A DNA stretch of 47,932 bases from a virus. Positions within the stretch are counted from its first letter, which is position 1. Each line of letters starts with the position of its first letter. Under the pieces are notes generated by a model. The model did no database searches. It was not told where the DNA came from and was given only the letters and a program-made list of their open reading frames with translations. Both the position numbers and the translations under genes were made by a program. Shown piece after piece: positions 4,477 to 45,558 of this stretch. The stretch is taken from positions 1-47,932 of IMG/VR virus record IMGVR_UViG_3300017991_000154. One strand, given 5' to 3'.

Positions 4477-5514
4477 ATGAGTAGAACAATAAGTGTCGTA
4501 TTAAACGACTTAAACATAGCGACAAGAGACTTTATGATGGACGTCATTTCAGCAATTAACAATGACAACTATTTTTCGTCTCGGATGCTAAGAAAATCGA
4601 AACCGTTTACTGGTGGAGATAAAGCGGAAACTGATCTCCGTTATGAAAGAGAAAATGTCCAGACTATGACAGAGTATGGTGAGTATATTTTACAGCCAGT
4701 CGATATTTTAGATTTGGCTAAGTACAGCATCAAGCATGTTCATGGTGACATGGTAATCTCTCAGAAACGTTTAGAAGTACAAAACAGGGGCAAAGCTGCT
4801 GACATCTCTCTTGCTCGCACAAAGAGTGAGAATATGTCAGAAACAATGAAAAATGAATTCAGTGAGTTACTGTTCAAAGCAGTGGCAGACCTGGAAGATG
4901 AAGACCCCGATTCTCTGATTAAAATTGTCGGAACAACCAATAATACAGTTGGCGAAATTAATGCATCTACGGAAACACGGTTCGATTGGAATCCAACCGT
5001 GTATGATATTTCGAGTGCAACTCCAACATACACTAATTTAGTGGACGCAACAAATACTTATTATTTTGAAAAGTATTTGAGAATGTTGGTTGGTCCCTTA
5101 ACCATCGGAAATGATAAGCCTACTATCGGCTTGACAACTCAGGCTGTATGGGATGCTTATGAGGAAATTCTCACCACTGCGAAAAGATTCAATGATTCAA
5201 CAATGGAAGTTGATGGCGGATTTAACGTTTTGAAGTTCAGAGGAATGAAAATCGCTGTTGATTCTCACGTTCCTGGTGGAAAGATGAATTCAGATGTTTC
5301 CGATAATACAGCGTATTTCATGGCTATTAACGAAAAGTACATTGGTTATACACATTCACCCAATGTCAACTTTAAGTGGACTCCCTGGAAAAAGTTGGAG
5401 CGTCAACCAGTTTACGCCAGTCTGTTAGATTGGTTTGGCTGTGTTTGGTGTTCACGCAGAGATCGTCATGGAGCGATTTACGGACTACCATGTGACAGCC
5501 AAGTTTACACTTAA
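4477..5514 (+). CDS. Major capsid protein
   Basis: A 345-residue protein after the scaffold gene, with its own hairpin leader and a good GGAG. The size, the N-terminal helix (TRDFMMDVISAINNDNYFS), a long mid-region helix (SENMSETMKNEFSELLFKAV) and the 'FRGMKIAVDSHVPGG' strand-turn near residues 253-267 fit an HK97-fold coat protein. It would form the icosahedral shell. No decoration or Ig-like insertion is visible. Position between scaffold and decoration protein supports the call; sequence alone is not diagnostic. Confidence 0.75.
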   Translation: MSRTISVVLNDLNIATRDFMMDVISAINNDNYFSSRMLRKSKPFTGGDKAETDLRYERENVQTMTEYGEYILQPVDILDLAKYSIKHVHGDMVISQKRLEVQNRGKAADISLARTKSENMSETMKNEFSELLFKAVADLEDEDPDSLIKIVGTTNNTVGEINASTETRFDWNPTVYDISSATPTYTNLVDATNTYYFEKYLRMLVGPLTIGNDKPTIGLTTQAVWDAYEEILTTAKRFNDSTMEVDGGFNVLKFRGMKIAVDSHVPGGKMNSDVSDNTAYFMAINEKYIGYTHSPNVNFKWTPWKKLERQPVYASLLDWFGCVWCSRRDRHGAIYGLPCDSQVYT

Positions 5515-7470: not shown

Positions 7471-8391
7471 ATGGCTACTTTCTCTACATTAGCAAATCGA
7501 GTCAGGGCAATTGTTGATTTGTCTGGCTTCAATATGCCAGTGAATATTTCGTTACTTCTCCAGGAAGCAGAAAACGAATTTATCAGGAAAACGTTCTGTA
7601 CGGAAGAAATACGAGAGATTCAAAGCGAGGCATCAACTGTTACTTTTGATGGGACTGAAACAGATATTACTTTTGTTCCAGGATCAGGCAATACGAAGGA
7701 TACCATAACAGATGATAGCGATGGCTTTACCGATGATGGATTTGAAGCTGGAAAAGAGATTGTTGTGGCTGATAGTACCAGCAATGACGGAACGTATACT
7801 ATCTCATCCGTTGCTGATGGAACGCTTACGCTTGTTTCCATAGGCAGACTAACGAGTGAAAGTGGCGTATCGGGAATGACAATATCTCAAAACCAAGTGC
7901 CGTATATATTTGCTTTACCAAGTGACTTTGTGAAAGAGTTTCGAGTAAGTTATCGGGGAATACAACTCGAACCGCTCAGTATGCAAACCACTGGTGAAAT
8001 AACTAAAAGTACAGGTACTATTCAAACAGGAACACCTTATTATTATTGGATAGAAGGTTCTTATATTCACATAACTCCTAAACCGTTACAATCAGGTCTC
8101 TTGAAGTTGTGGTACTGTAAGTATAATACGGACAGTACCTCAACTTCCCCTATTATACCAACTATTGAACATTACTATCTACCAGATTGGGTCATTGGTA
8201 CGATTTACGAATTAGACAAAAACTCACAAATGGCAGATAGGTTTTTATCGAAGTTTTATTCTAATTGTGAATCAAGGAAAGTAATGTATGCTTCTCGCAG
8301 ATTCAAACAAAGAAGAATAGCCGATGTAGTTGGTGGAGAAGGAAAGAGAACTGGAATAGAAAATTGGATTAATATAGTAGAGGAGGCGTAA
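7471..8391 (+). CDS. Head-tail adaptor-type protein with shared beta module
   Basis: A 306-residue protein. The N-terminus (TLANRVRAIVDLSGFNMP, LLLQEAENEFIRKT) and the C-terminal part (PSDFVKEFRVSYRG, YYYWIEGSYIHITPKP, LKLWYCKY, HYYLPDWVIGTIYEL) fit the podovirus adaptor/gatekeeper pattern (P22 gp4 or T7 gp11 type), a helical ring beneath the portal. Residues 59-137 carry the same inserted module as the decoration protein (FDGTETDITFVPGSGNTKD, NDGTYTISSVADGTLTL). Apart from the insert it is about the usual length. It would connect the portal to the tail nozzle. Confidence 0.65.
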   Translation: MATFSTLANRVRAIVDLSGFNMPVNISLLLQEAENEFIRKTFCTEEIREIQSEASTVTFDGTETDITFVPGSGNTKDTITDDSDGFTDDGFEAGKEIVVADSTSNDGTYTISSVADGTLTLVSIGRLTSESGVSGMTISQNQVPYIFALPSDFVKEFRVSYRGIQLEPLSMQTTGEITKSTGTIQTGTPYYYWIEGSYIHITPKPLQSGLLKLWYCKYNTDSTSTSPIIPTIEHYYLPDWVIGTIYELDKNSQMADRFLSKFYSNCESRKVMYASRRFKQRRIADVVGGEGKRTGIENWINIVEEA

Positions 8392-12563: not shown

Positions 12564-13244
12564 ATGGCGGCAGGAGATATAACCGATGCTCTGGTCGATG
12601 AACTTGGTATTCGGTTAGAAGATGCAAGTGAATCCAACTTCACGGAAACTACAAAACTATTAGCGTTAAATCGAGGACAAATTCAATGTTGTCACTTTTT
12701 GCATAGTGCTTATTTAACTGAATTGGAAGCAGTTGAAACTGATCTGGATATTTCTGGTGGAAGCTATTCAATAAGTTCTCTTGATTCGAGCAATGGTGCA
12801 TTAAAAGGCGGTGAAGGAATAATTGCGGTTGCTTTTGACCTTGATGATGCAGGTTCTTATACTTTTGCAACGCAGGTTGATCTGAAAAATATAAAAAGAA
12901 CTGAAAATACTTATTTAGCAGACAGTCTCACCAACTTTTTGTATTACATACATGGCAATACGATTTATTGTTTGTGGGGTGGCGATACTAAAGCATCGGC
13001 TGATGGTCAGATATTCTATCTATCAATACCAGCAACTATGACAACAGATGTCGATCCTGAAATAAATTCTGGATTACACGAGATAATGCTTCTTTTTGCA
13101 GAGGCTATTTGTTGGGCGATGGATGGACAAATAGATCGCAGGACTAAGGCTATGGAATCTGCTCTTGCTCAGGTCGAAGTACTGAACAAGAAGTACACCC
13201 CAGCCGACAACATAGGAACAAAGGGACGAATTAGAGTTGAATAA
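12564..13244 (+). CDS. Adaptor-like tail protein (paralogue of the C-terminus of the next gene)
   Basis: A 226-residue protein: N-terminal helix-rich part (ITDALVDELGIRLEDASES, KLLALNRGQIQCCHFLH), a beta insert (DLDISGGSYSISSL) and a helical C-terminus (LHEIMLLFAEAICWAMDGQ, ALAQVEVLNKKY). The same order of motifs is repeated in residues ~406-620 of the following protein. The build resembles tail-adaptor proteins that insert between portal and nozzle. Because another adaptor-type gene exists at 7471, this pair may have a different ring-forming role. ATG follows GGGAG. Confidence 0.65.
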   Translation: MAAGDITDALVDELGIRLEDASESNFTETTKLLALNRGQIQCCHFLHSAYLTELEAVETDLDISGGSYSISSLDSSNGALKGGEGIIAVAFDLDDAGSYTFATQVDLKNIKRTENTYLADSLTNFLYYIHGNTIYCLWGGDTKASADGQIFYLSIPATMTTDVDPEINSGLHEIMLLFAEAICWAMDGQIDRRTKAMESALAQVEVLNKKYTPADNIGTKGRIRVE

Positions 13245-15121
13245 TGGCTGATTTTGTACTATTCTATTGTACTAAACTTTCTGGTGTACCTATATATGGA
13301 TGTTATTTAAATGATGATTTAACATTCACAGAAATAGGTGTTGGTCAAACATACGAATATTATACCGCATACGATACGACCACAGGGATAGTTTATGTAT
13401 GTAGAACAGATACGAATCAATTACTAGGAATCACAGCCAGTACAAGAAATGTTGCTTATACATACAATATTCCATCTGGCAATTATAAACCGATGTTTTG
13501 TGATGCTGATGGAAAAGTATGGTGTATTGCGAGCACGGCAAGTAACAAGGTTTATATTTTTGACGCGGATTTGGGAAGTGTAAATACCTATACTTTAAAA
13601 ACAGGTAATCCGCTTGGTGGAAAGATAGATTATATTACTGCCACGTTTGATAGTAATTATGTTTACATGATGTATGATCATGCAAGTGGAAAATTGGCAA
13701 AATATGATGTAAACAATATCGATGGAGGTGAAGCGGAATGGTCAATTGATGTGATTAGTCCTAAGTGCATATTCTGTGATAGTGACAATCATGTATATGT
13801 ATTAACACTTAATTCACTGACTAAATATGACGAATCAGACGGATCACAACTTTGGACAACAGCTAATGCTGGTGGTTATTTCGGTTTTTACAGTGTAGAT
13901 ACAAATAGAATTTATGTTCCTGACATAACGGACACTATGTTTAGAGAATATACAGAAGGAGGTAATGCGGATGGATATGCTGATAATGATTACATATTCA
14001 GTACAGCACCACCACATTGTATAGGCGGAAATACGACTTTTATCTATGCGATATTGGGAATGAACGGAGCAGGATCAAACTATCAAATTTGGAAATACAA
14101 TCACGAAGACTGGGATTCACCTGAAACAGAGCAAGCTAATAAATATTGGTTTCTGTATAATTATCGCTTTTCAGGTGATCCTTTAGGTTATTTGAATTGG
14201 ATATTACGTTCATATCCAGAAGCAGAATTTTCGGGTACTCCACGTTCAGGATATTCACCATTAACGGTACAATTCACAGATTCATCCAATGGGAATATAG
14301 CTACATGGTTATGGGACTTCGGAGATGGAGAAACGTCAAACGAACAAAATCCAGAACATATCTATTCTTCGCCAGGTGTTTACGATGTTTCATTAACAGT
14401 CACCACAGATGAAGAATGGGAGGACACAGAAACAAAAACCGAATATATCAGGGTAACTCTTGAAGATGTTGCAACTAGATTAGATGAATTGGCAGTTAGA
14501 TTAGAAGACCCACAGAATGAACATTTTACAGAGGAAATGAAACTTGAAGCATATAATAAAGCTCAAGTAAGAATAGTTAATCATTTAAAACCAGAATATT
14601 TACCAAATTTACAATTAATAGAAAATGACATTGATATATCAAGCGAGGAATACAGTTTAAGTTCTTTTTCAGAAAGCGTCATTAATGGTAGAGAGGGAAT
14701 ATTTAGTGTAAAAGTTACTATCAGCAGTACAGATTATTGGGCTTATGAAATAGATATTGATAATTTAAAAAGACTCGATAATCCGTATTTTCTTCCAGAT
14801 GGAACTATTTTCTTTTATGTTGACGCTGGAAAACTATATTTTAGAACGAGCACTGATTTGTCATTAACAGGAGCAACGGCAGATGTTTACATGATGAAAG
14901 TTCCAGATGATATGACAGATTATGTTACAACGGAACTGACAGATGATTTGAGAGAAGTATTGGTTTGTTGCGCTGAATTTTATTGCTGGCAAATGGACAA
15001 TAAACTTGACAGGATGCAAACAATAAAGAACTTAGCTATGTTACAACTTGATTTATTAAATTATAAATTTACAGAATCACCAGAAGTTATCATAACAGGA
15101 GATCAAGACAATGCCAATTGA
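13244..15121 (+). CDS. Propeller + PKD + adaptor-like fusion protein
   Basis: A 625-residue protein with three parts. Residues ~1-310 contain regular blade-like repeats (GIVYVCRTDTNQLLGIT, KVWCIASTASNKVYIFD, NYVYMMYDHASGKLAKYD, NHVYVLTLNSLTKYDE), as in a beta-propeller. Residues ~327-403 are a PKD domain (SPLTVQFTDSS, WLWDFGDGETS, HIYSSPGVYDVSLTV). Residues ~406-620 repeat the domain of the upstream gene (RLDELAVRLEDPQNE, DIDISSEEYSLSSF, LREVLVCCAEFYCWQMDN). PKD domains often bind surface polysaccharide or protein. The protein could form a tail ring carrying host-binding domains. Its start overlaps the upstream stop (TAATG). Confidence 0.7.
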   Translation: MADFVLFYCTKLSGVPIYGCYLNDDLTFTEIGVGQTYEYYTAYDTTTGIVYVCRTDTNQLLGITASTRNVAYTYNIPSGNYKPMFCDADGKVWCIASTASNKVYIFDADLGSVNTYTLKTGNPLGGKIDYITATFDSNYVYMMYDHASGKLAKYDVNNIDGGEAEWSIDVISPKCIFCDSDNHVYVLTLNSLTKYDESDGSQLWTTANAGGYFGFYSVDTNRIYVPDITDTMFREYTEGGNADGYADNDYIFSTAPPHCIGGNTTFIYAILGMNGAGSNYQIWKYNHEDWDSPETEQANKYWFLYNYRFSGDPLGYLNWILRSYPEAEFSGTPRSGYSPLTVQFTDSSNGNIATWLWDFGDGETSNEQNPEHIYSSPGVYDVSLTVTTDEEWEDTETKTEYIRVTLEDVATRLDELAVRLEDPQNEHFTEEMKLEAYNKAQVRIVNHLKPEYLPNLQLIENDIDISSEEYSLSSFSESVINGREGIFSVKVTISSTDYWAYEIDIDNLKRLDNPYFLPDGTIFFYVDAGKLYFRTSTDLSLTGATADVYMMKVPDDMTDYVTTELTDDLREVLVCCAEFYCWQMDNKLDRMQTIKNLAMLQLDLLNYKFTESPEVIITGDQDNAN

Positions 15122-21777: not shown

Positions 21778-22016
21778 TGGAATGGTTAGAAAATAGCAAT
21801 TTTCCGAAGTATGCCTATCCCTTACATACTTTTCCTAAATATGCGGTATTGGGAAATGAGATAGCGGTAACAATAGTTAGGCGTAAGCGTGTAACGACTT
21901 CCAAAGGTGGCGGAAATGTTGAGTTTTATCCAGAAGATAAACTTATTGCTATAAAATTAATTGAAGAAAGAGAGATATTAGAAATTATCACAATTCTACT
22001 AAAGGTTATTGAATGA
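21777..22016 (+). CDS. Small hypothetical protein
   Basis: A 79-residue protein coupled to both neighbours (its ATG overlaps the spike stop, its stop overlaps the giant gene's ATG). It begins MEWLENSNFPKYAYPLHTFP, has a beta pair with Arg/Lys (ITIVRRKRV-like region) and ends in a hydrophobic helix (EILEIITILLKVIE). No family recognised. Its position suggests a role connected to the spike or to the polyvalent protein. Confidence 0.6.
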   Translation: MEWLENSNFPKYAYPLHTFPKYAVLGNEIAVTIVRRKRVTTSKGGGNVEFYPEDKLIAIKLIEEREILEIITILLKVIE

Positions 22017-25000
22017 GCTGGAAAGATTGTTTAAAAATATTGAGCTTGAAAGATAGGAATGAGTTTAAAAAGCTCCGTACTACAAAAGAGATGATTGCAG
22101 AAGCACAATCTCGTCTTGATGTTTTATCTCAAGAGCAAATAGATATTGAAAGCGTTATTGTTAAGCATTATAACAAGCTCAAACGAGGATATAAATATGA
22201 TCCAGAAGTCAAGGCTAAGTTGAAAGAAATAGATACGACTATTGATGAATTGAGAAGAATTAGACCAGCAGTTGAAGTAGAGCAGCCGATTGAAGAAAAA
22301 GAAGTAGAGCCAGAGGTAAATCTCGAAGCAAAAGCAGAGGAGAAACAAGCAGAGCCTGCTGAGGAGGAGAAGGAAACACCAGAACAACGAATTACAAAAA
22401 TAATTACTGAATCAAAAGAAAGTGGCAAAGTATTAAGAGATAAAATTCAAAGCGAACTTAATAAGGCAGGCAATGAATTACAACAAGAAGCTGGCAAAAA
22501 GATACGTGATTTAAAGCCAGTTGGTAAACAATCTGAAATGGGAGAAGTTTTCAAGGCTGCGCCTCCCAAAGGTAAAGTCTTTGTGAATATACTTGGTACG
22601 AATTACGCTTTCCCTGAAAACAAACAACCCACAAAAGAGCAAATTGATGATATAGAAGCCACTTTCAAAAAAGGTGAGGACTATCTAAAAAAGACCTTTG
22701 ATTATAATTTTTCTATTATAGAGCCTAATCGTACAATAGGAAATAAAAAAGTATTAGAAAAAGGATTAAGTCTAAAAGATAAAGGTTTATTAGAAAAAGA
22801 TGAAATTGAATTTGTAAATAAGTTAGAAAAATATTGGAATGAAAATCCAAATGCTGATTCAGGTATTGTAGATGAAAATGGGAATATAATTACATTAGAA
22901 GAAAGCAGAGAAAAACGAAAGCAACCAAAGAAGAAGCTGGAAAAGCCAAGCGAGAAAGTTCCAAAACGGAAGCCTAAAAAGGAGTTGAAAAAACCTGAAC
23001 CAACTAAAGATAGATATTTAGGCAAGAACGAAAATGGGGACGAAATCTATTTAGACAAAAATGGTGTTCGATATATCCTAACTGGTGCTAACAAGAATAT
23101 CAGAAGCTCTGAACCTGTTAGCGTGTTACCAACTGGTGAATATTCTCCGAGACATACGCCTCCACGTCAATTTAGAACAATGGAAGAACTGGCAAAAGAA
23201 TCAGAGCCGAAGGAACTCAAAAAACCAGAGCAAAAAGCCGAGACAGAAAAGAAACTTGTAAAGCCAGAAGCAAAGAAAACTGATTTTGTCATATCTACTA
23301 TTAATGAAGCACAGAACGGTATTGAACTTTCATTTAAAAGCAAACCGTCAGAGGAAATAAGGAATAGACTTAAAGCGCATAAATTTCGGTGGTCACCCAA
23401 GAAGAAAATATGGTATGCTACAAAAAATTCCAGTACACTAACATTTGCGGAAGAATTGAAAGATGAATTGAATGTGGCGCCAGAAGCTCCTATCGAAGAT
23501 TTGACTCCTGTACAAGCAGAGATAGCAAAACGAGCCGAAGAATTAACTGAACCAGAGATCGAAGAAATACATAGAGATTTAAAACGGTTAGCTGGTGTTG
23601 ATTATGACATGGCTACTGAAAGGAATGATGTAGGGTTCAATAAATTCGACACACAATTTGGCAACGAGTTAGCCAATAAAGAAAGACTAACTCCAAAGCA
23701 GGCAGCAGCAGCCGAGAAGATGCTTAGGAAGTATGCAAAGCAATTAGGTAAAAAATCAAAAAAGGAACTAAAAAAACCAGAGAAAGAAATTAAACCAGAA
23801 AAAGAACTCGCACCCTATTCATCTGAATATGGTGCAAACAACAAGATAGTAACCAGGGATAGAGCTAAAGAGCTTGAAGAAAAACTACGTCAGAAGTTGA
23901 ATCAACTTAATGTTGGTGTTGATCCTGAATTATTTACAATAGGTACTGAATTAGCTGTATTTCACATAGAGGCAGGGGTACGTAAATTCACTGATTATGC
24001 GAGGACAATGGCGGAGCAATTCGGTGAAAAGATAGTTCCATTTCTGAAATCTTTCTATCTCGGTGCGAAAAATTATCCAGGCGTCAATTATCCTGGTATG
24101 AACTCGGAAGCTGAAATTGAGCAATTGGAAAAAGAAGGCTTCTTGAATGATATGGAACTGTATGCTGAAACTTATAAAGACAAAAAAGCGTTAAATATAT
24201 CGAAGGAGGAACAAGATGGATTACGAACAAATAGCGACATCCCTGCTATCGGAAATGAGAAACAACTCAAAAGTGAAGGCGTTGAAACGACCTCAACTCA
24301 AACGTCTGATCAAGAGCGTATCTCAGACAGCGCAAGAGAGCGTGTGGATAGCTCTACAGCAAGCACAGAAAGACAAGAACCTACCGTATCAGAATCTACT
24401 GCAATTAACGAAAGCAGCCGAAGAAATAGCTCTGAAAGATATGGAAAACGAGATATACCAACTGTTCCAAGAAGAAACTTCAGACGAGGAGATTACGGAG
24501 AGACAAGTGGCTTAAAAGCAAAAGCAAGGGCTACTATTGACGCTATTAAGACGTGGAAAAAGATAGACAAAGAAGGTAGGCAAGCTACACCAGAGGAACA
24601 GGAAATACTTTCACAGTTTGCAGGAGCAGGTGGATTACTTTATTTATTCCCAGACCAAAACAATAAGATCAAAGAGGGATGGGAAGATGTTGCAACAGAA
24701 CTTCAAGAAATACTTTCACAGCAAGAATATGATTCTCTGAAATCAACTCTCCCAAATGCACATTATACCTCACCATTGGTTGTAACCAAAGTATTTAACA
24801 TTTTAGAGAAATTAGGCTTTAATGGTAAAGGAAAGATATTTGAGCCAGGTATGGGTGTTGGAAATTTCTTTTCATTAATGCCAGGAGAATGGAATGAAGC
24901 TGAATTGCATGGCGTTGAGATGGATATTGTCTCAGGGTCAATAGCAAGATTGCTTTATCCTCATGCCAATATAACAATCTCACCATTTCAGAAAATGGAA

Positions 25001-28000
25001 ATACCTGATAATACCTACGATGTTATTGTCGGTAATGTACCATTCAGCAATAAAATAACTCCTTTTGATCCAGTTCATAACAAAGAGAAGTTCAGTCTCC
25101 ATGATTACTTTATGAATAAGAGTATGAATATTCTCCGTCCAGGTGGATTAATGGCTGTTATCACATCAAGATACACAATGGATAAAATTGATCCAACGGT
25201 ACGAAAGAAATTGTATGAATCTGGTGATTTGATAACGGCTATCAGACTTCCAAAGACTGCATTTCAAAAGACTGCTAATACGGAAGTGGTGACAGATATT
25301 TTAATATTTCGCAAGAGGATGCCAGGGGAAAATAAAGGTGATAGTATTTGGTTGGGAACAATTGATAAAGAATTAGTTAATTCGGAAGGTGGGTATGATT
25401 CCTCAAATATCAATGAATATTTTATAGGTAACAGCAAAAATTTATTTAGAAATGTAGCTGGAAATATTTCATTAACAGGAACTATGTATGCTAAAAATGA
25501 ATTAACTGTTACACTTTCTAATCCGAGTTATTTAGAGAATGTACTCGATCAAATAATAAATGAACAAAAAATAAACGATAGTGATAAATACGTAGAAAGA
25601 GAACCAATTTCACCAACCGAAAGAGAATTTGAGGAACAAAAGTTTGAGAATGCTGAATTTGACAATTGGAATGATGTAAAGATTGGCGCATATACTGTCA
25701 GTAAAGATGGTAGATTGTTTATTAAACAGGAAGGTAATCTTCCAGTTGAAGTCACGATAAAAAAGAAAGGTTCAAAGTTAGGTGTTAATCAACAGGATTA
25801 TGATCGTATAATTGGATTTGTTAGATTAAGAGATGCATGGCAGAAAGTTCTTACCACTCAGGCTAATTTAGAATCAACAGCAGTTAAAGAGCAGGCTCGT
25901 AGGGAACTCAATAGAATTTATGATTCTTATGTAAAAGAATTTGGATATTTCAATCATACATCGAAAACAGAGTATACCAGGAAGTCAGATGGAAAAGTTA
26001 TTGTCACTCGAAGACAAAAAAATTTGAAACCATGTATGGCTGATCCAGATGTTTGGGGCGTTTCTTCTCTTGAGAGTTACGATGAGGATACAGGCGAATC
26101 AAAAAAGAATCAAATATTTGAACATGATGTAATCGGAGTAGAGCCACCAGCACAAATAGAAACTCCTTCAGATGCACTTATAGCTTCACTCAATGAAACA
26201 GGAAAAGTTGATTTTGATTATATGTCTGAACAATTGGGGATTGATGAAGATAAGATAATCGAGGAATTAAAAGGTCAGATATTTCTTAATCCTGTAAATG
26301 AAACTTTTGAAATAAAAGAAAAATATCTATCTGGCAATGTAAAACGTAAACTTGCAGAAGCAAAAGAAGCATACAAGAAAGATAAAAAGTATGCGGATAA
26401 TGTAAAGGCATTGGAAGAAGTACAACCAGAAGATGTACCACCGACTCAGATAGCTGCTAATCTTGGTCAGCCCTGGATTCCAATAGAGGACATAGAAGCT
26501 TTCGTAAATCATATTGATGAAAATGCAAAGGCAACTATTACTTATACACCAAGAGAAGCAAAGTATCACGTTTCTATCTATGGAATGGACGAAACCATTG
26601 CAAAAAATACTTGGGGAACAAGCAAGAAATCATTTGCAAAGCTATTAGAAACGGCACTAAATAAAGGTTTACCCAAAATATTGGTTAAAACAACTAACGA
26701 ACAAGGTGATGAAATAACTGTTGTTGATCAAGATGCGACTGCATTGGCACAAGATAAGATGTCGAGAACAAAAGAGCGTTTCTCCGAATGGTTGTGGGAA
26801 GATGATGATAGACAGATAAGGTTAGCAAGGCTGTATAACGACACATATAATACCAACGTAAGTCCTAAATATGATGGTACGTTTTTGACTTTCAAGGGAA
26901 TGAAAGCAAAGGGTGGATGGTTTAAGGGATTGTATCCACATCAAAAAAATTCAGTATGGCGCCAATTGCAAGAAGGCAATACGCTATTTTCTCATGTAGT
27001 CGGAAGCGGTAAGACAATTACAATGATTACCGCTGGAATGGAAATGAAACGTTTGGGAATGATCAATAAACCTATGTACGTTATTCCGAATCACATGCTA
27101 CGTCAGTTTAGTAATGAGTTTTTAGAACTTTATCCAACTGCAAAATTAATGGTTGCCGATGAAATAAACTTTAAGACATCTAAGCGAAAACTCTTTGTAA
27201 ATAAAATTGCAAGTCAGGATATAGACGCTGTTATTATTACTCATAGCGGTTTTGGAAAAATACCAATTAGCGCCAGGACAGAAGAAAAATACGTAAGAGA
27301 AGAAATAGAAGCTTATGAAACACTGATTGTTGAGGCAAAGAGAGATAGAGACACAAATGCTACAAAAGATTTAGAAGCAAGAAAATTAAATCTTCAGGAG
27401 AGATTACGTAAGTTATCAGCAAGTATGAATAGAGATACAGGTATTGAGTTTGAGAAAACAGGTGTTGATTATATTTTCATAGATGAGGCACATGAATTTA
27501 AGAATCTTGAAACAAGATCAAAAATGGCTGCTTTGAATATAAAGAATCTCCCAACTCAAGGAGTAGCTAAAGCGTGGGATTTGTTTGTAAAGTCTCGTTA
27601 TTTGGCGGAGCGTAATCCCAAGCGATTTATGACATTTGCAACTGGTACTCCTGTATCGAATAGCATGGTAGAACTTTATAATCTTATGCGATACTTACAG
27701 CCCTGGAAGCTGCAAGAGTTAGGTATGGAACACTTTGACGCATGGGCATCGAGTTTCTGTGATGTGGTAAGTCAAATCGAAATCGATCCCACTGGTTCAG
27801 GGTTTAGAATGGATAGTCGATTTGCTAAATTTGTTAATTTACCAGAATTAATGCAGGCATTTGGAGAGGTTAATGACTTTGTATCAAATGACGATTTAAT
27901 AAGAGATAAAATAATAAAACTTCCACCGATTAAAGGTGGAAAAGCACAATTGATACAAATAGAACCCGATGAAACACAAAAAAGTGCGGTTAAATGGCTT

Positions 28001-31000
28001 AAATATAGATTAGATCATTTGACAAAGCCAATGAAGGGTGCAGATAATGCATTAAGTATTGTTAATGATGGCAGGTTAATTGCTATTGATCCGAGATCGA
28101 GATTTAAGGGAATAAAGCATCCGCCAGAGGGAAAGGTCGCAAAGGCTACAAAGGAAATATATAGAATATGGGAAGAAACCAAAGACAAAAGATATACTCA
28201 ATTAGTTTTCTCCGATTTGGCAACTCCAAGCAAAACGAAATATTCTGTTTATAACGATATTCGTAAAGCATTAATAAGCATGGGTGTTCCGAAAGATGAA
28301 ATTGCTTTTATGCACGACTATCCAGGAGCAATACAAAAAGAACGATTGTTCAGCGATATGCGGTCTGGAAATAAGCGTATTCTCTTTGGTTCGACTAAAA
28401 AGATGGGCATGGGAACAAATGTTCAAAAAAATCTTTATGCAGTTCACCACATAGATGCACCCTGGCGTCCAGCCGATGTAGAGCAAAGAGATGGGCGTAT
28501 TTATCGGCAAGGTAACTTGTGTCCTGAAATAGAAATCATTCGCTATGTCACAAAAGGTACATTTGATGCTTATATGTGGCAGACGTTAGAAGTCAAACAA
28601 GGGTTCATTGAACAATTGTTAAAGGGTAGTGCTGAAATTAGAGAAATGGAAGATGTAAATCTAAAAGATGCATTATTCGATCCTGCTCAGGCAAAAGCAT
28701 TAGCAGCAGCCAATCCGTATATGTTCGAGAAAGTCAAGACAGATGTTGAGATTAAGAAATTAGGTGCTTTAAAGAAAGCAATGAAAGATGAGGAATATAG
28801 AAGAAATAAGAAATTAACGGATGAAAAAAGATTTGTTGAGAGAAGCCAAAATAGAATTAAAGAGTTGGATGAATGGATAAAACAAGCAGTTGACACAACT
28901 GGCGATAAGTTTAAAATAAAATTAGGAAACAAATATTTTGCAGATAGAAATGAAGCTGCTAATGAATTGGATAAAAAACTTGAAGATATTTCCAGAGGGA
29001 CAGAGATAAAAGCGATAGGATATTTTAAAATTGGAGAACTTGCTGGTTTTCCATTATATGCTAAATTTTTCAATACAAAAGTCCACAAGAAGACTAACAA
29101 ATGGTATGCGGTTACTTTGCGATTCGGGGAGATTGCGCAATCAGTTGAAGTTGGAACTTTTGCTAAAGAACAAATAGTAAAAGATAATCCATTTGACATT
29201 TTGGAATTTAATTATAAATCTGAGGCATCTTTAAGTTATGTGATCGGAGGAGGTTTAGAAGTAAGAGATGATGTAACATGGAACAATGCTCGTGAAGCTA
29301 TTCTATCGTTGGAACATATTTCCAGATCATTGCCAAGAAGAAAAGAGTACGTAGAAAAACAAATAGAACAATCAGAGAAATCAATTAAATCTCTAAGTCA
29401 AGCACCGGAAGGTTTTAAACAGGAAGAAAAATTAAAACAATTAAAAGAGAGATCGCTTGAATTAGAAATGTTAATTCGACAATCGGGTGCGCAACAAGGA
29501 GAGGAAGAATTTCCAGATTTCAGTGACATTATTTCCAAATATACAGGTAGAATTACATCGAATATTATAGAATATATCGGAAAATTAGCGAATGAAAAAG
29601 GTGGCATTTCTCAAGCATTAGAGGACAGAATCAGGCAAGTAGAGGAGGAACAGGAAGAAGAAGAGATAGAGGAACAAAAGAAGCGAGGCAAAATTGCAGG
29701 AAAAGAACCAACCATCAGTTCATTAGCAGAATGGAATGCTCAGGCTATTGTTATGTTAGATAAAGCTGTACCAGGAATAGACGTTTATTATGATATTCCG
29801 AAAACAGAATTTAACAAAGCATTAGCTCAAATTGGAGCAGAGGGTGAGCCGTTAGGGTTTTTCTCACCAAAGAACAATGCAATTTTCATAAATCCAACAA
29901 AGGCAAATAAGGATACCATTTTCCATGAATATGCTCATATAGTAGTGGGTTGGATTAAGAAAAGCGATCCTGCTTTGTATCAAGAAGGTATTGGATTGTT
30001 AAAAGATTCTCCATACAAAACAACTGAAGAAGGATTAGTTCAAGCTATCGGGGAGAAAGGAGCGCAAATACAAGATGGATATAAAAAGAATCGGTTTGTT
30101 GCATGGATAAAAAAGATATGGATAAAAACAAAAATACGATTTAAGAGATTGTTCAATATTGATTTGACACTAAATGAATTTACTGAAATGATCTCTTATG
30201 CAATGCGTGGTGGTAAGCCAATCGTGCCCAAAAATGTTAGTAAAAGATTAGTAAAGCCACAATATCAATATGCAGGTGAAAGAGCAAGGACAGCGAATTT
30301 AGGCAATCTTGAATTAGCAAAACAACTTGAATCACAGGGACAAAACACGAGAACAACGACAGGATGGTTTAAGGGTCCCGATAAAAAGTGGAGATTTGTG
30401 ATTGATGATAGTGAGATGTCAATACGTAAGGTATCTGAATATCAAGCATTTCCATCTGTTTGGGACGAGAATATAAGAGATTATAAACAAGAATTTAGAG
30501 GAAGATTGGCTGACGCTGTTAAACATGATGCATTATTTGAAGCATATCCAGATTTAGCAGATATAAGGGTTTCGCTGTATATCAATGAAAATGTTAGCGT
30601 GGCTGGAATGTTAAAAACGAAAGGACTTGATTTAGCAAATGCGGAAATAATACTACAAGCTCCCGATGTTAATTCATTGAGAGAAAATTTAGCACATGAA
30701 ACCCAGCACTGGATTCAATTCTATGAAGGCTTTGCTCGTGGCGGGGAGATGGATAGAGATAGCAAGGCAGTCATTAGACAGAACATGGCTACTTTACAGC
30801 GATATTCTAATGAGATTGCTATTTCCCAACAGTTGATAGATCAAAATCCGTTCTCTTGGGACAAAGACAGACTTAACAAGGTAAGATCGAAGATTAAAGA
30901 ATTAAAATCTCAATACGATGAACTTTATAAAGTAACGAAAGAATTAAAGGATTTTGCTTATGAACAATACAAAAGATTAGCAGGTGAATTTGAAGCGAGA

Positions 31001-33805
31001 GATGTTTCAAGTAGAATAGACTTACCACCAGATTTGAGTTTTCTGATAGCTCCGTATTCTTCTGAAAAAAGAGATTTCAAGGACTTGATAATACAATATC
31101 ATGGGAAAAATGCAGCGTTATTAACAGAGGAAATGGAAGACCCGTTTATTACAGAAATGAGGAACAAATACCATTCAGGAGCATTTGAAGATCAGTCTGA
31201 ATTTTTATCTTTATTGGCAAAGGAAAAGTATCACTTCACTGATGTAGCCAGGGCAAAGAAATATTGGGGTGAAATTATTGCTGATAAGATAGAGCCAGAA
31301 GAAAAGACACCTCTTGATTTACCAGTAGAAACATGGTATCAGCATTTACAGCAACTATGGCAGGATAAATATAGACGATCTGGGCAGTTAGTAAAGAGAG
31401 CAAGGGAACGTGGTGAATCTTTTGGCGACGAACTTGATTTTAGATTGAGCGAAGAATTGTTTATTGGCAGAGCTTCGGATCAAATCGAAAAATTCCAAAA
31501 GAAAATAACAAATGATAAAGATGGTTTTTTGGAAAGGTTAATTGATGCAGGCATTGATTGGCAAGATTTGAGTTTATTCATGTATGCCCGACATGCTCCT
31601 GAACGAAACGAGACTATCAAACAGGAGGATATTGAAATTAAAAAAACTCATCCTAATCACGAAGTAAATGAAGCAGGTTCAGGAATGAGTGACAAAGATG
31701 CTCGTGATACGATGCTTGAGTTTGAAGAAACAGGGAAAGTCTCAGAATATACTCGTTTTGCTGATGAATACTATGAGACAGTAACGAAACCAGCATTAAA
31801 GCTTCAATATGAAGCAGGATTGATAAAAGAAGAAGAATATGAGCAATATCTAAGTCAATGGAAATACTACGTTCCACTCAAAGGAATAAATAGGGCAAAA
31901 CAATTTAGAATGAGAGGAAAAGGCTATTCTGTTGAATATAAGGGTATTATAAAAGCCAGGGGACGGCATTCACTTGCTCAAAACAATCCATTCATTCAGG
32001 GAATAATGGATCACGAGGATGCCATTATCCGAGCCGAAAAGAACAAAGTCGGTCAAGATTTTCTTAAATTTGTATTAGCTCATAAAGATGCTACAATGCC
32101 AGGTAAATTCGGAGATGAACCTTTGTGGCATGTTGAAGGAAGAAAGAAACTTCCAACTTATAATAAGTTTGGAGAAATAGAATATTTCAGAAATGCAAAA
32201 CAACAGTTAGCAGACGAGGAATTTGCTGTTTGGGTTGATGGCAAACAGAAAGTGATTACTATTTACGATCAAGCATTGTTAAATGGATTAAAAAATATTG
32301 GTATAGAAAGAGGTTTCAAATTTCTAAACAAAGTAAATCATTATCTACGATTAGTAAATACGATGCTCAATCCAGAATTTATTATTTCCAATTTTGAGCG
32401 TGATTTACAAACAGCGATTATTAATTTGGAAGCTTTTCAAATAAAGAAGATAAAGCGCAATGTGATGAAAGATATTCCAAAAGCGATGTCAGGTATTTGG
32501 AAAGGAATTCGAGATAAAGAAGGTAATGAGTGGACACGGATATTTGACGAGTATAAAGCAGAAGGCGGAAAAACTGGCTGGTTTGATTATAAGACTTTGG
32601 ATGAAAAAACAGAGGAATTTGAAAATAAGATAGCTAATTACAAAAAATCGGGTGATATTAAAAAAGCACTTGAACTTACAAAGCAATTTGTTTTTGATAT
32701 TAATGATACAGTTGAAAATGCTGTTAGGTTGTCTGCATATAAAAACGCAAAAGACGCTGGAATGACTAAAAAACAAGCAGCTAATTTAGCTAAAAACCTT
32801 ACTCTCAATTTTAACAAAAAGGGAGAGATGGGTGGATTTATGAATAGTCTTTATCTATTTGCAAATGCTGGGGTGCAGGGTGGAGCAAGATTATTAGTGG
32901 CACTAAAATCAAAACGAGTACAAAGAATTGGTGTTGGTTTGGTATTATGGTCTATATTATGGGATACAATAAACAGACTAATTGGCGGTGATGATTATGA
33001 AAAAATAGATGAGTATATTAAAGACACAAATCACATTTTTATAATTCCTGGTACTGACAAACATTTTAGAATAAGACTTCCTTACGGATATAATGTATTT
33101 AATGTTGTAGGATTGGCAATCAGTGCTGTTTTACATGGTGAAGACCCCATTCATCAAGGAGGACGAATACTCTCAAATATAGTTGATGCATTTAATCCAC
33201 TTGGCAGAGCAGGGTCGTTGGGACAATTGATTTCTCCGACAGCTTTTGATTTACCGCTTCAACTGTGGGAAAATAAGAATTTCTTTGGTGGTCCCATTAG
33301 AAAGGAGCAACCAGCGTATGCACCAAAGATACCAGAGTCAGAGCGATATTTTAGTACAGTTAGTCCATACACTCAACAATTGACAACTTGGCTCAATGAT
33401 GTTACTGGTGGATCATCACGAAAAAGAGGATGGTTAGATATTAATCCAGAGAATATAGATCATGTATTAGATTTCGCAGGAGGTGGTACAGGCAGATTTC
33501 TGATTCGATCTATAAATGTTCCCTGGACATTAATCTCAGAGGGCAACTTTCCGCATCCTGAAAAGATTCCATTTGTTAGACAGGTATATGGTGAACGTTC
33601 TGAATGGATGGATTTCAAAAAAGTGAATGAGTATATCAAAGAAGCTGGACGTACTCGCTTCTCACGTAAACAAGTTACTGATTTTATGACTTCTTTAAAT
33701 ACGCTATACGAGGAAAAGAAGATCACAAAAGAAAATTACAAACGGAAAAAAGCTGTTTTTTTTAACGCACAGCATAAGCTAAAAAGACGTACAGTAAAGA
33801 AATAG
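22013..33805 (+). CDS. Giant polyvalent protein: DarB-like methyltransferase/helicase with metallopeptidase-like modules
   Basis: A 3930-residue protein, far longer than phage P1 DarB-type proteins. Visible order: Lys/Glu/Pro-rich linkers (1-430); a small domain with 'HKFRWSPKKKIWYA' (~438-475); LPD-type segments (~540-578 and ~605-693, YGANNKIVTRDR); a methyltransferase with FEPGMGVGNFF (~943-953) and NVPF (~1007); an SNF2-type helicase with GSGKT (1664-1668), DEAH (1824-1827), ATGTPVSNS (~1876) and a motif V-VI block (~2131-2167, DAPWRPADVEQRDGRIYRQG); an HEXXH site HEYAH (2638-2642); a second HETQH (2895-2899); a long helical region; and an LPD38-like C-terminus with a membrane helix (~3637-3660). 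Polyvalent proteins of this class are packed in the head and enter the host with DNA to counter restriction. Its place beside ejection-type genes agrees. The methyltransferase motif IV is N-V-P-F rather than N-P-P-F/Y. Confidence 0.9.
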   Translation: MSWKDCLKILSLKDRNEFKKLRTTKEMIAEAQSRLDVLSQEQIDIESVIVKHYNKLKRGYKYDPEVKAKLKEIDTTIDELRRIRPAVEVEQPIEEKEVEPEVNLEAKAEEKQAEPAEEEKETPEQRITKIITESKESGKVLRDKIQSELNKAGNELQQEAGKKIRDLKPVGKQSEMGEVFKAAPPKGKVFVNILGTNYAFPENKQPTKEQIDDIEATFKKGEDYLKKTFDYNFSIIEPNRTIGNKKVLEKGLSLKDKGLLEKDEIEFVNKLEKYWNENPNADSGIVDENGNIITLEESREKRKQPKKKLEKPSEKVPKRKPKKELKKPEPTKDRYLGKNENGDEIYLDKNGVRYILTGANKNIRSSEPVSVLPTGEYSPRHTPPRQFRTMEELAKESEPKELKKPEQKAETEKKLVKPEAKKTDFVISTINEAQNGIELSFKSKPSEEIRNRLKAHKFRWSPKKKIWYATKNSSTLTFAEELKDELNVAPEAPIEDLTPVQAEIAKRAEELTEPEIEEIHRDLKRLAGVDYDMATERNDVGFNKFDTQFGNELANKERLTPKQAAAAEKMLRKYAKQLGKKSKKELKKPEKEIKPEKELAPYSSEYGANNKIVTRDRAKELEEKLRQKLNQLNVGVDPELFTIGTELAVFHIEAGVRKFTDYARTMAEQFGEKIVPFLKSFYLGAKNYPGVNYPGMNSEAEIEQLEKEGFLNDMELYAETYKDKKALNISKEEQDGLRTNSDIPAIGNEKQLKSEGVETTSTQTSDQERISDSARERVDSSTASTERQEPTVSESTAINESSRRNSSERYGKRDIPTVPRRNFRRGDYGETSGLKAKARATIDAIKTWKKIDKEGRQATPEEQEILSQFAGAGGLLYLFPDQNNKIKEGWEDVATELQEILSQQEYDSLKSTLPNAHYTSPLVVTKVFNILEKLGFNGKGKIFEPGMGVGNFFSLMPGEWNEAELHGVEMDIVSGSIARLLYPHANITISPFQKMEIPDNTYDVIVGNVPFSNKITPFDPVHNKEKFSLHDYFMNKSMNILRPGGLMAVITSRYTMDKIDPTVRKKLYESGDLITAIRLPKTAFQKTANTEVVTDILIFRKRMPGENKGDSIWLGTIDKELVNSEGGYDSSNINEYFIGNSKNLFRNVAGNISLTGTMYAKNELTVTLSNPSYLENVLDQIINEQKINDSDKYVEREPISPTEREFEEQKFENAEFDNWNDVKIGAYTVSKDGRLFIKQEGNLPVEVTIKKKGSKLGVNQQDYDRIIGFVRLRDAWQKVLTTQANLESTAVKEQARRELNRIYDSYVKEFGYFNHTSKTEYTRKSDGKVIVTRRQKNLKPCMADPDVWGVSSLESYDEDTGESKKNQIFEHDVIGVEPPAQIETPSDALIASLNETGKVDFDYMSEQLGIDEDKIIEELKGQIFLNPVNETFEIKEKYLSGNVKRKLAEAKEAYKKDKKYADNVKALEEVQPEDVPPTQIAANLGQPWIPIEDIEAFVNHIDENAKATITYTPREAKYHVSIYGMDETIAKNTWGTSKKSFAKLLETALNKGLPKILVKTTNEQGDEITVVDQDATALAQDKMSRTKERFSEWLWEDDDRQIRLARLYNDTYNTNVSPKYDGTFLTFKGMKAKGGWFKGLYPHQKNSVWRQLQEGNTLFSHVVGSGKTITMITAGMEMKRLGMINKPMYVIPNHMLRQFSNEFLELYPTAKLMVADEINFKTSKRKLFVNKIASQDIDAVIITHSGFGKIPISARTEEKYVREEIEAYETLIVEAKRDRDTNATKDLEARKLNLQERLRKLSASMNRDTGIEFEKTGVDYIFIDEAHEFKNLETRSKMAALNIKNLPTQGVAKAWDLFVKSRYLAERNPKRFMTFATGTPVSNSMVELYNLMRYLQPWKLQELGMEHFDAWASSFCDVVSQIEIDPTGSGFRMDSRFAKFVNLPELMQAFGEVNDFVSNDDLIRDKIIKLPPIKGGKAQLIQIEPDETQKSAVKWLKYRLDHLTKPMKGADNALSIVNDGRLIAIDPRSRFKGIKHPPEGKVAKATKEIYRIWEETKDKRYTQLVFSDLATPSKTKYSVYNDIRKALISMGVPKDEIAFMHDYPGAIQKERLFSDMRSGNKRILFGSTKKMGMGTNVQKNLYAVHHIDAPWRPADVEQRDGRIYRQGNLCPEIEIIRYVTKGTFDAYMWQTLEVKQGFIEQLLKGSAEIREMEDVNLKDALFDPAQAKALAAANPYMFEKVKTDVEIKKLGALKKAMKDEEYRRNKKLTDEKRFVERSQNRIKELDEWIKQAVDTTGDKFKIKLGNKYFADRNEAANELDKKLEDISRGTEIKAIGYFKIGELAGFPLYAKFFNTKVHKKTNKWYAVTLRFGEIAQSVEVGTFAKEQIVKDNPFDILEFNYKSEASLSYVIGGGLEVRDDVTWNNAREAILSLEHISRSLPRRKEYVEKQIEQSEKSIKSLSQAPEGFKQEEKLKQLKERSLELEMLIRQSGAQQGEEEFPDFSDIISKYTGRITSNIIEYIGKLANEKGGISQALEDRIRQVEEEQEEEEIEEQKKRGKIAGKEPTISSLAEWNAQAIVMLDKAVPGIDVYYDIPKTEFNKALAQIGAEGEPLGFFSPKNNAIFINPTKANKDTIFHEYAHIVVGWIKKSDPALYQEGIGLLKDSPYKTTEEGLVQAIGEKGAQIQDGYKKNRFVAWIKKIWIKTKIRFKRLFNIDLTLNEFTEMISYAMRGGKPIVPKNVSKRLVKPQYQYAGERARTANLGNLELAKQLESQGQNTRTTTGWFKGPDKKWRFVIDDSEMSIRKVSEYQAFPSVWDENIRDYKQEFRGRLADAVKHDALFEAYPDLADIRVSLYINENVSVAGMLKTKGLDLANAEIILQAPDVNSLRENLAHETQHWIQFYEGFARGGEMDRDSKAVIRQNMATLQRYSNEIAISQQLIDQNPFSWDKDRLNKVRSKIKELKSQYDELYKVTKELKDFAYEQYKRLAGEFEARDVSSRIDLPPDLSFLIAPYSSEKRDFKDLIIQYHGKNAALLTEEMEDPFITEMRNKYHSGAFEDQSEFLSLLAKEKYHFTDVARAKKYWGEIIADKIEPEEKTPLDLPVETWYQHLQQLWQDKYRRSGQLVKRARERGESFGDELDFRLSEELFIGRASDQIEKFQKKITNDKDGFLERLIDAGIDWQDLSLFMYARHAPERNETIKQEDIEIKKTHPNHEVNEAGSGMSDKDARDTMLEFEETGKVSEYTRFADEYYETVTKPALKLQYEAGLIKEEEYEQYLSQWKYYVPLKGINRAKQFRMRGKGYSVEYKGIIKARGRHSLAQNNPFIQGIMDHEDAIIRAEKNKVGQDFLKFVLAHKDATMPGKFGDEPLWHVEGRKKLPTYNKFGEIEYFRNAKQQLADEEFAVWVDGKQKVITIYDQALLNGLKNIGIERGFKFLNKVNHYLRLVNTMLNPEFIISNFERDLQTAIINLEAFQIKKIKRNVMKDIPKAMSGIWKGIRDKEGNEWTRIFDEYKAEGGKTGWFDYKTLDEKTEEFENKIANYKKSGDIKKALELTKQFVFDINDTVENAVRLSAYKNAKDAGMTKKQAANLAKNLTLNFNKKGEMGGFMNSLYLFANAGVQGGARLLVALKSKRVQRIGVGLVLWSILWDTINRLIGGDDYEKIDEYIKDTNHIFIIPGTDKHFRIRLPYGYNVFNVVGLAISAVLHGEDPIHQGGRILSNIVDAFNPLGRAGSLGQLISPTAFDLPLQLWENKNFFGGPIRKEQPAYAPKIPESERYFSTVSPYTQQLTTWLNDVTGGSSRKRGWLDINPENIDHVLDFAGGGTGRFLIRSINVPWTLISEGNFPHPEKIPFVRQVYGERSEWMDFKKVNEYIKEAGRTRFSRKQVTDFMTSLNTLYEEKKITKENYKRKKAVFFNAQHKLKRRTVKK
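24216..24515 (+). CDS. Nested helical protein inside the giant gene (overprinted gene)
   Basis: A 99-residue open frame in the +1 frame of the giant gene. A perfect AAGGAGG (24203-24209) stands 6 bases before the ATG. The product is a normal-looking amphipathic helical protein (YEQIATSLLSEMRNNSKVK, SVWIALQQAQKDKNLP, NLLQLTKAAEEIALKDM) with acidic C-terminus. In the same stretch the giant protein (residues ~735-835) is Ser/Thr/Arg-rich and low-complexity, as often happens when a linker is overprinted by a real gene. Function unknown. Independent translation is inferred, not proven. Confidence 0.6.
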   Translation: MDYEQIATSLLSEMRNNSKVKALKRPQLKRLIKSVSQTAQESVWIALQQAQKDKNLPYQNLLQLTKAAEEIALKDMENEIYQLFQEETSDEEITERQVA

Positions 33806-44795: not shown

Positions 44796-45032
44796 TTATT
44801 TTTCTTCTAATAGATCATAATAGTCGCAAATGATTTGATTTTGTCTTTCTTGCTCTGACATTTTTGGTCTTTTATTCCACCGTGATATTAATTCACCACT
44901 ACCACAACAAGTTAAAATAGCTGCACCACAAGTATAGCAATGTATAATATCTTTCATTATACGATCACCCACTGTGACTTCCTCAATTAAACCAATATCT
45001 GCACTTCCACAGAATGGACATGGTTTATACAT
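44796..45032 (-). CDS. Lar-like restriction alleviation protein
   Basis: A 78-residue protein from the ATG at 45032 (GGAGAAGC upstream). 'YKPCPFCGSADIGLIEE' and 'IIHCYTCGAAILTCCGSGEL' followed by 'RWNKRP' match the Lar family (Lar_restr_allev), with two CxxC zinc-binding pairs and the terminal W-N-x-R motif. Lar of Rac and related phages reduces type I restriction. The tail (MSEQERQNQIICDYYDLLEEK-like) is extra. Its start overlaps the primase gene's end. Confidence 0.75.
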   Translation of the reverse strand: MYKPCPFCGSADIGLIEEVTVGDRIMKDIIHCYTCGAAILTCCGSGELISRWNKRPKMSEQERQNQIICDYYDLLEEK

Positions 45033-45558
45033 TGCTTCTCCTTTCATAAACAAGATCATTGAGTTGGTTATCGAGCTTATACAGAATAAACTCAATGTCC
45101 TCATTGTTTTGTTTTCTGCATATATCGCTTATTTCGTCAATTGCTTTCACGACTGCTTTTATTTTTTTTTCATAACCAAAATAGTCTGATAGCTGTTCTC
45201 TCCATTGCGCTTGTAAAAAGTGAGTTGGAAAAATAGCTTCGTTGTACTTGCTGTAATCTTGTTTCTTTTCTTTTCCAGGATCGTATGGAGTTCCAGTTAG
45301 ATCACAAAGATATTTTATTGCTTCCTGGAATGAGCAGTTGTTAACAAGTTGTACCAATTTTAGTTTATCGCCAGACTCTAAACAACTAAAGCATCTGAAT
45401 GTGTTATTATTCCAACTAAATGAATTTGGATTTTCACCTAAATGTATTGGACATTTTGATCTTTTTTTGTTTGTATTAAAACTTGTTATGTTGAAATGAA
45501 GCAATAATTGTTCAAATGATATTGCACTTTTCAATCTTGCTAATTTATGTTTTTCCAT
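45025..45558 (-). CDS. CHC2 zinc-finger primase-type protein (no Toprim)
   Basis: A 177-residue protein. The finger 'KCPIHLGENPNSFSWNNNTF' then RCFSCLESGD gives ligands C36, H39, C56 and C59, the DnaG/CHC2 pattern with Ile in place of the usual Phe of CPFH. 'SFQEAIKYLCDLTG' continues the DnaG N-domain. No Toprim domain is encoded; the C-terminal half is a coiled-coil-like segment. A stand-alone finger could prime together with a host or phage core, or regulate it. Confidence 0.75.
   Translation of the reverse strand: MEKHKLARLKSAISFEQLLLHFNITSFNTNKKRSKCPIHLGENPNSFSWNNNTFRCFSCLESGDKLKLVQLVNNCSFQEAIKYLCDLTGTPYDPGKEKKQDYSKYNEAIFPTHFLQAQWREQLSDYFGYEKKIKAVVKAIDEISDICRKQNNEDIEFILYKLDNQLNDLVYERRSNV

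Follow-up and report, generated by a model that had tools for sequence, protein, structure and literature searches.

A small gene very probably nested in the +1 frame of a DarB-like methylase–helicase giant, and probably a divergent relative of the TnpV family

Does the low-complexity linker of a giant viral gene conceal a second, separately started gene and, if it does, which of the two frames was laid over the other? The question arises in a virus record of 47,932 bases (hereafter the window, meaning the whole stretch of DNA that was analysed), where a 99-codon frame preceded by a Shine–Dalgarno site lies inside a polyvalent gene of 3930 residues. The features on which the argument turns are these:

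22013..33805, + strand: giant polyvalent DarB-like gene (the outer gene), 3930 aa, with matches to phrog_10089 and to the Pfam domains SNF2-rel_dom, Helicase_C, LPD23 and LPD38
23837..24133, + strand: conserved block directly upstream of the nested gene (outer aa 609-707), from a phrog_938 match and tblastn to relatives
24203..24209, + strand: Shine–Dalgarno AAGGAGG, 6-nt spacer to the inner ATG
24215..24514, + strand: outer-frame reading of the overlap, a low-complexity linker of the giant, from translation, composition and the codon-position test in relatives
24216..24515, + strand: nested (inner) gene, 99 aa, ATG start, +1 frame of the giant
24509..25792, + strand: DNA methylase block of the giant (outer aa 833-1260)
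26930..28530, + strand: SNF2-type helicase region, used as query for relatives

The first third of the giant matches the phrog_10089 profile 'DarB-like antirestriction' (E 2.2e-153), and a single chain carries an adenine-methylase block followed by an SNF2-type helicase, the arrangement by which we call it DarB-like. The inner ORF lies wholly within this gene. As the original prediction had it, a 99-codon frame with AAGGAGG at 6-nt spacing is present inside the giant's low-complexity linker, and the two translations of the overlap differ in the way described: the outer is rich in Ser, Thr and Arg (40% together, with 15% hydrophobic residues), whereas the inner is 30% hydrophobic and its AlphaFold2 model is that of a helical protein. 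Our reading, drawn from sequence analysis, is that 24216-24515 is very probably a genuine protein-coding gene nested +1 in a DarB-like methylase–helicase giant; we put the probability at about 0.87, a figure from which any companion role of the product is excluded.

Taken by itself, the window leaves room for coincidence, namely a chance open frame in a low-complexity linker next to a chance AAGGAGG. The length of the frame is not significant in the window alone: when the codon order of the giant was shuffled 2000 times, the longest +1 ORF reached at least 99 codons in 139 cases, and 2000 synonymous shuffles gave 123 such cases; the latter left the exact stretch 24216-24515 open in +1 30 times. 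The + strand of the window has two places where an ATG lies 4-9 nt after AAGGAGG. The one outside the nested gene (13956-13973, inside a 625-aa ORF at 13244-15121) begins no ORF as long as 20 aa, which shows that the motif can arise by chance on its own. Nor does the window have a relative close enough for testing selection. Against coincidence stands, within the window itself, the GC content by codon position, which in the overlap is 0.55/0.28/0.47 for the inner frame and 0.48/0.55/0.28 for the outer, compared with 0.47/0.34/0.26 for the whole giant gene. This pattern fits the inner frame, rather than the outer, as the one likely to be coding here.

Relatives bear on the matter more directly. 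The giant's linker region matches 109 phage records by tblastn, and in eight of ten records examined the corresponding linker contains an unannotated +1 ORF of about 90-176 codons; one of the remaining two has a divergent nested ORF and the other is phage PBC5. None of the phage records inspected annotates the nested gene separately; gene callers seldom keep a 100-codon gene inside a 4000-codon gene. Two sequence types can be told apart among the nested ORFs, one with the pattern NW..A..HWKE..P..Y..L...G.L..AL..AAE.T (the HWKE type) and a Lessievirus type. Five HWKE-type sequences used as queries retrieved 72 loci in viral contigs and 20 in bacterial or archaeal genomes. Where inner gene and methylase are both held by a locus (100 loci, made up of 70 viral contigs, 13 genome contigs and 17 phage-record loci, with some phages counted twice), the inner gene stands in the +1 frame relative to the methylase, whose own frame runs through the overlap without a stop (100/100 for each). 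The upstream block was recognised in 72 of these 100 and forms one ORF with the methylase in 70, the two exceptions being both copies of phage PBC5.

A second set of relatives was gathered without the inner gene, using the window's helicase alone and a helicase alignment, so as to lessen circularity. It comprises 104 distinct loci, six of which stop short of the stretch upstream of the methylase, leaving 98 that are informative. A match to the nested family was found in 92 of the 98, and all 93 matches in this set lie in the +1 frame, neither +2 nor the minus strand giving any. Because helicase-found loci had contributed in part to the profiles, the hit rate is not independent, whereas the frame result is. 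The six informative relatives without a family match are L118, L204, L207, L262, L202 and L252; L202 has a weak 15-bit TnpV match in +1, and L252 is phage PBC5. An inner frame broken beside a conserved outer frame, the pattern named at the outset as telling against a nested gene, is thus absent from most relatives, and these six indicate that losses exist and are few. Several giants had been scored as having no inner gene; this was wrong, the gene lying further from the methylase than the 700-1300 nt searched. The nearest relative found, L199 (52% helicase identity), has a nested ORF with AAGGAG upstream. Together, these comparisons show that the position and frame of the predicted nested gene are kept across very divergent giants.

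Which frame is constrained was read from substitutions in homologues, the codon-position test that had been proposed for both frames. We used 44 disjoint pairs (60-97% identity, aligned as DNA, each locus taken once), drawing on 88 of the 134 distinct nested sequences; outer position 1 equals inner position 3. Differences at outer positions 1, 2 and 3 numbered 1107/4465, 686/4467 and 655/4466 in the overlap, and 813/6259, 599/6257 and 2267/6258 in the downstream flank; the upstream flank gave 26/25/38%, values that are noisy and include poorly aligning stretches. Pair by pair, outer position 1 exceeded outer position 3 in 42 of the 43 untied pairs within the overlap, with one the other way, and downstream the count was 0 against 43. 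Differences therefore pile up at inner third positions, which means that the inner frame is constrained and the outer protein comparatively free in the overlap; the window, having no close relative, is not among the pairs. For the relatives compared, the test shows the coding constraint in the overlap, as judged by substitution pattern, to be borne by the inner frame and not by the outer.

The starts of the nested genes carry their own signal. ATG accounts for 124 of 130, and a Shine–Dalgarno match of at least 4 nt precedes 95% of them (20-21% of control ATGs); a match of at least 5 nt precedes 62%, against 4% of the 1510 further ATGs that these stretches contain, figures obtained by taking the best-scoring start within 30 nt, which somewhat favours the nested set, and after dropping the 4 of 134 loci without a start in that distance. 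This enrichment shows predicted ribosome-binding sites to be present at nested starts. With frame, substitutions and starts taken together, the comparative tests lift the nested ORF far beyond chance. Set against the shuffle counts and the stray second motif, the recurrence of the gene at matching position and frame in informative relatives, the near-unanimous inner-frame constraint and the Shine–Dalgarno enrichment make coincidence very improbable.

A programmed ribosomal frameshift from the giant would also use the inner frame, producing a shorter protein that ends in a TnpV-like domain and has no start of its own. Phage PBC5 (L004/L046) has its inner domain in frame with the upstream block and its methylase in another frame, as a frameshift product might suggest, and the phrog_938 profile likewise joins upstream block and inner domain; but PBC5 is a single phage, possibly with a sequencing indel, and Shine–Dalgarno sites with ATG are nearly universal at nested starts. 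In 40 of the 134 distinct nested loci the inner frame is open for 10 codons or fewer before the start, and in the window just 7 codons (open from 24195) lie between the in-frame stop and the inner ATG. So short an open run leaves little room for frameshift entry, and we consider frameshifting very unlikely. Independent initiation is the most likely course: translation would start within the giant's mRNA at the AAGGAGG-ATG, irrespective of ribosomes on the outer frame, and an mRNA with two start sites would allow every giant transcript to yield the small helical protein as well.

Two details of PBC5 may be recorded here. The arrangement in Sinorhizobium phage PBC5 (L004:2719-3145, also L046 and L252) could be a natural split or a sequencing indel, and phrog_938 ('endolysin', 2185 positions) has the length of the PBC5 ORF (6558 nt).

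To what family does the nested gene belong? Against the Pfam family TnpV (PF14198, cut-off 27 bits), ten proteins were tested: the nested genes of three relatives scored above the cut-off (L199 at 41.0, L277 at 31.1 and L275 at 28.3), five proteins scored below it, and two (L158 and L103) gave no match. In a separate comparison of seven proteins, five also match TnpV below the cut-off. A search for TnpV in 16 records, including giants first scored as lacking the gene, gave 10 matches at E<=1, 6 of them above the cut-off; in L202, L203 and L205 TnpV is nested +1. Six faecal phage records were searched, and the four with a match all have canonical TnpV nested +1 in an open frame of 940-2480 aa. 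Among 199 genomes of one phylum (that of the Halanaerobiales genome behind L112), 11 carry TnpV above the cut-off, at 26 places. Canonical TnpV is nested +1 in 13 of the 25 copies scored and free-standing or broken in the other 12 (L312, without a tblastn match, was the place left unscored; L319 and L321 are an identical broken copy), and all 13 outer ORFs, of 2022-3286 aa, hold methylase and helicase in their own frame. Plasmids gave 19 records with canonical TnpV and no match to an HWKE-type protein. By these profile matches the nested gene, taken across the relatives, is a member of the TnpV family in the wide sense, a family that commonly occurs in two states, one of them nested in methylase–SNF2 giants. 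The nested genes of the window's nearer relatives are like TnpV in size and helical make-up; they differ from the family as the papers describe it, which is as a transposon protein linked to excision and not as a gene overlapping a giant.

The window's own protein does not reach the 27-bit cut-off and gives no TnpV match in Pfam at E up to 1, and is for that reason not filed as TnpV. No relative came from tblastn of the protein against phages or from pattern searches of viral contigs, the window's outer linker DNA found no match among phages, and a search of NCBIfam returned nothing above a cut-off. A more sensitive comparison used the group-B profile, built from thirteen mid-range relatives with the window excluded. 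When all six-frame segments of the window were scored with it alongside 200 shuffled versions of the inner protein, the inner protein came first (E 0.0088), aligned over its residues 2-78; the hhalign alignment of this profile to the window protein has E 7.6e-4 and a probability of 25%. In the shuffle comparison the window protein beats all 200 with the group-B profile, 199 with canonical TnpV and 146 with the HWKE type, where 54 shuffles reach its score and it is thus no better than they are; with a two-sequence profile, three shuffles outscore it. From place and profile scores, we regard 24216-24515 as the positional equivalent of the TnpV-family gene in related giants and probably a divergent relative of it. 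Identification of the window protein as ADSL_C, LRRCT_2, YqbG or phrog_37562 was set aside, the matches being weak.

Structure models agree with a helical product in both the window and its nearest relative. AlphaFold2 gives an all-helix model for the window protein with 39 relatives (pLDDT 89.6, pTM 0.74) and a model of similar quality for the L199 nested protein (pLDDT 90.9, pTM 0.76); both open with two short helices followed by long ones, from alignments that are largely shared. Foldseek searches of the window model against BFVD and the PDB had best E values of 1.2 and 2.1, and no solved or viral structure resembles the nested protein convincingly by Foldseek or VIA-align. A likeness of the L199 model to histones (VIA-align best Z 4.6 over 68-70 residues at 5-6 Å) was rejected as falling in the range of unrelated helical proteins, and the designed repeat proteins and other helical matches from a solved-structure search with A4 were not taken as relatives.

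The direction of overprinting seems to be the reverse of that first supposed. Frame invariance, codon-position constraint and the ribosome-binding sites of relatives uphold a small gene that is real and has its own start within the giant; the picture of this gene as printed over the giant is not upheld, since the inner gene would be the old, folded family and the giant's linker the part laid over it. Across 134 loci the outer linker is 75% S/G/E/D/R/Q/P/T/N and 9.6% hydrophobic. Because a structure is predicted for the inner protein, which also has relatives outside the overlap and shows constraint, while the outer linker is of low complexity, the linker is most likely the overprint on an older inner gene, and it may serve the giant as an unstructured spacer.

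Codon structure offers a possible reason for the choice of frame. For an inner gene in +1, outer stops arise solely at the junctions T/AA, T/AG and T/GA, and a T-to-C change there is silent in the inner gene. Such junctions number 0/4232 in nested copies, as an open outer frame demands, and 28/230 in seven free-standing TnpV. Outer stops are therefore removable by silent inner changes, which may explain why the +1 frame alone occurs.

Relatives of the inner protein outside any overlap do exist, as the free-standing L093, L096, L100, L103 and L106. The HWKE-type copies with no methylase giant in the stretch examined are:

L093:4001-4297, HWKE-type copy
L096:508-900, HWKE-type copy
L100:2919-3149, HWKE-type copy
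L103:3974-4762, HWKE-type copy
L106:3980-4306, HWKE-type copy
L111:2083-2634, HWKE-type copy

In L103 the HWKE-type domain belongs to a longer protein of 262 aa, and stops interrupt the other frames. The L106 ORF adjoins apparent type I restriction-modification genes, their translations being judged by eye. A small tree places free-standing TnpV (L296-L321) among the nested copies, which would suit an escape from the overlap; the tree is weakly supported, both for that placement and for what the tree would say of an origin by fusion of separate genes and of the order of nested and free-standing states.

Same-strand overprinted genes are classical in phages, the familiar cases being lambda Rz1 in Rz and phiX174 E in D. 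In each of them, as in the window pair, a complete gene is read in a different frame from the longer one around it and is started separately; what sets the window pair apart is that the nested protein looks ancestral and structured, with the outer linker as the newcomer, and that the arrangement spans phages and bacterial genomes. With the DarB-like polyvalent proteins (P1 DarB and JC1 gp69) the window's outer gene shares phrog_10089 and the SNF2 and helicase domains. P1 DarB, however, starts at the methylase and has neither the linker nor the nested gene of the window giant. The main text of a review of polyvalent proteins (PMC5512222) contains neither 'TnpV' nor 'overlap', and a literature search covering mostly openly available papers found no report of such nesting in DarB-like or SNF2-methylase giants. 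TnpV, DarB and gene overlap are all familiar separately; as far as we have seen, the conserved pairing is new. It would add a deep case of overlapping genes, the folded protein being old and the disordered linker laid over it.

What might the small protein do? It may be a companion of the methylase–helicase, serving as folding partner, adaptor or regulator while incoming DNA is shielded from restriction, a suggestion that we advance tentatively and at somewhat less than even odds. Divergence of the inner protein follows that of the methylase (Spearman 0.80, 0/999 permutations, in the first 90 loci meeting a length condition), showing that the predicted nested gene diversifies together with the methylase; this fits a lasting partnership, and physical overlap alone would give part of the correlation. 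The giant of a relative, JC1 gp69, is reported in virions with 51 unique peptides (PMC9144972), and no mention of the small protein was found beside it; the nested ORF of JC1 lies at L005:2913-3251. Packing of the small protein with the injected giant, as the original prediction had it, would be one possibility. P1 DarB is described as a component of the virion, acting in cis to protect the phage DNA, and protection from type I restriction by a virion protein is known for P1 (PMC5512222).

The nested gene could equally be real and have a job unrelated to the giant, as an excision or DNA-binding factor kept there for compactness or co-transfer, a proposal that is compatible with the gene-level explanation and that we also place a little below an even chance. 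Free-standing copies of the TnpV family exist, and TnpV of Tn4451 was postulated to act in excision on the basis of similarity to lambda Xis (PMC3158075). TnpV-carrying mobilizable elements, moreover, insert in snf2 genes of ICEs; those of Streptococcus suis are reported to do so site-specifically (PMC9815147). Such a job sits less easily with nesting that is specific to methylase–SNF2 giants of phages and other elements, and with the co-diversification with the methylase (r 0.80), of which, again, overlap alone would produce part.

It may be observed separately that carriers of free-standing TnpV target the very kind of gene that nests TnpV relatives.

Returning to the companion reading, a wider version can be sketched, which we hold to be rather doubtful. 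TnpV would then be in essence no transposition protein but the second half of an ancient two-protein anti-defence unit, set in fixed +1 overlap with a methylase–SNF2 giant and common to phages, plasmids and conjugative elements, with the free-standing TnpV of transposons as escapees; through the overlap both products would be transcribed and transferred as a single unit, and the small protein would act on or with the giant at DNA entry. Should the nested gene be expressed, work on DarB-like giants by knockout, expression or virion proteomics has treated two proteins as one, and Pfam TnpV gains a natural context, that of a methylase–helicase protecting mobile DNA.

Several further features of the window were noted in passing:

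28687-29199, - strand: ATG-started ORF of 170 aa, antisense to the giant, without a Pfam match
2120-2866: probable AP2/HNH homing endonuclease gene, close to the capsid genes
4477-5514: major head protein family
7471-8391: SU10-type adaptor
45025-45558, - strand: 177-aa ORF with a DnaG-type zinc ribbon (PF01807), possibly a primase piece
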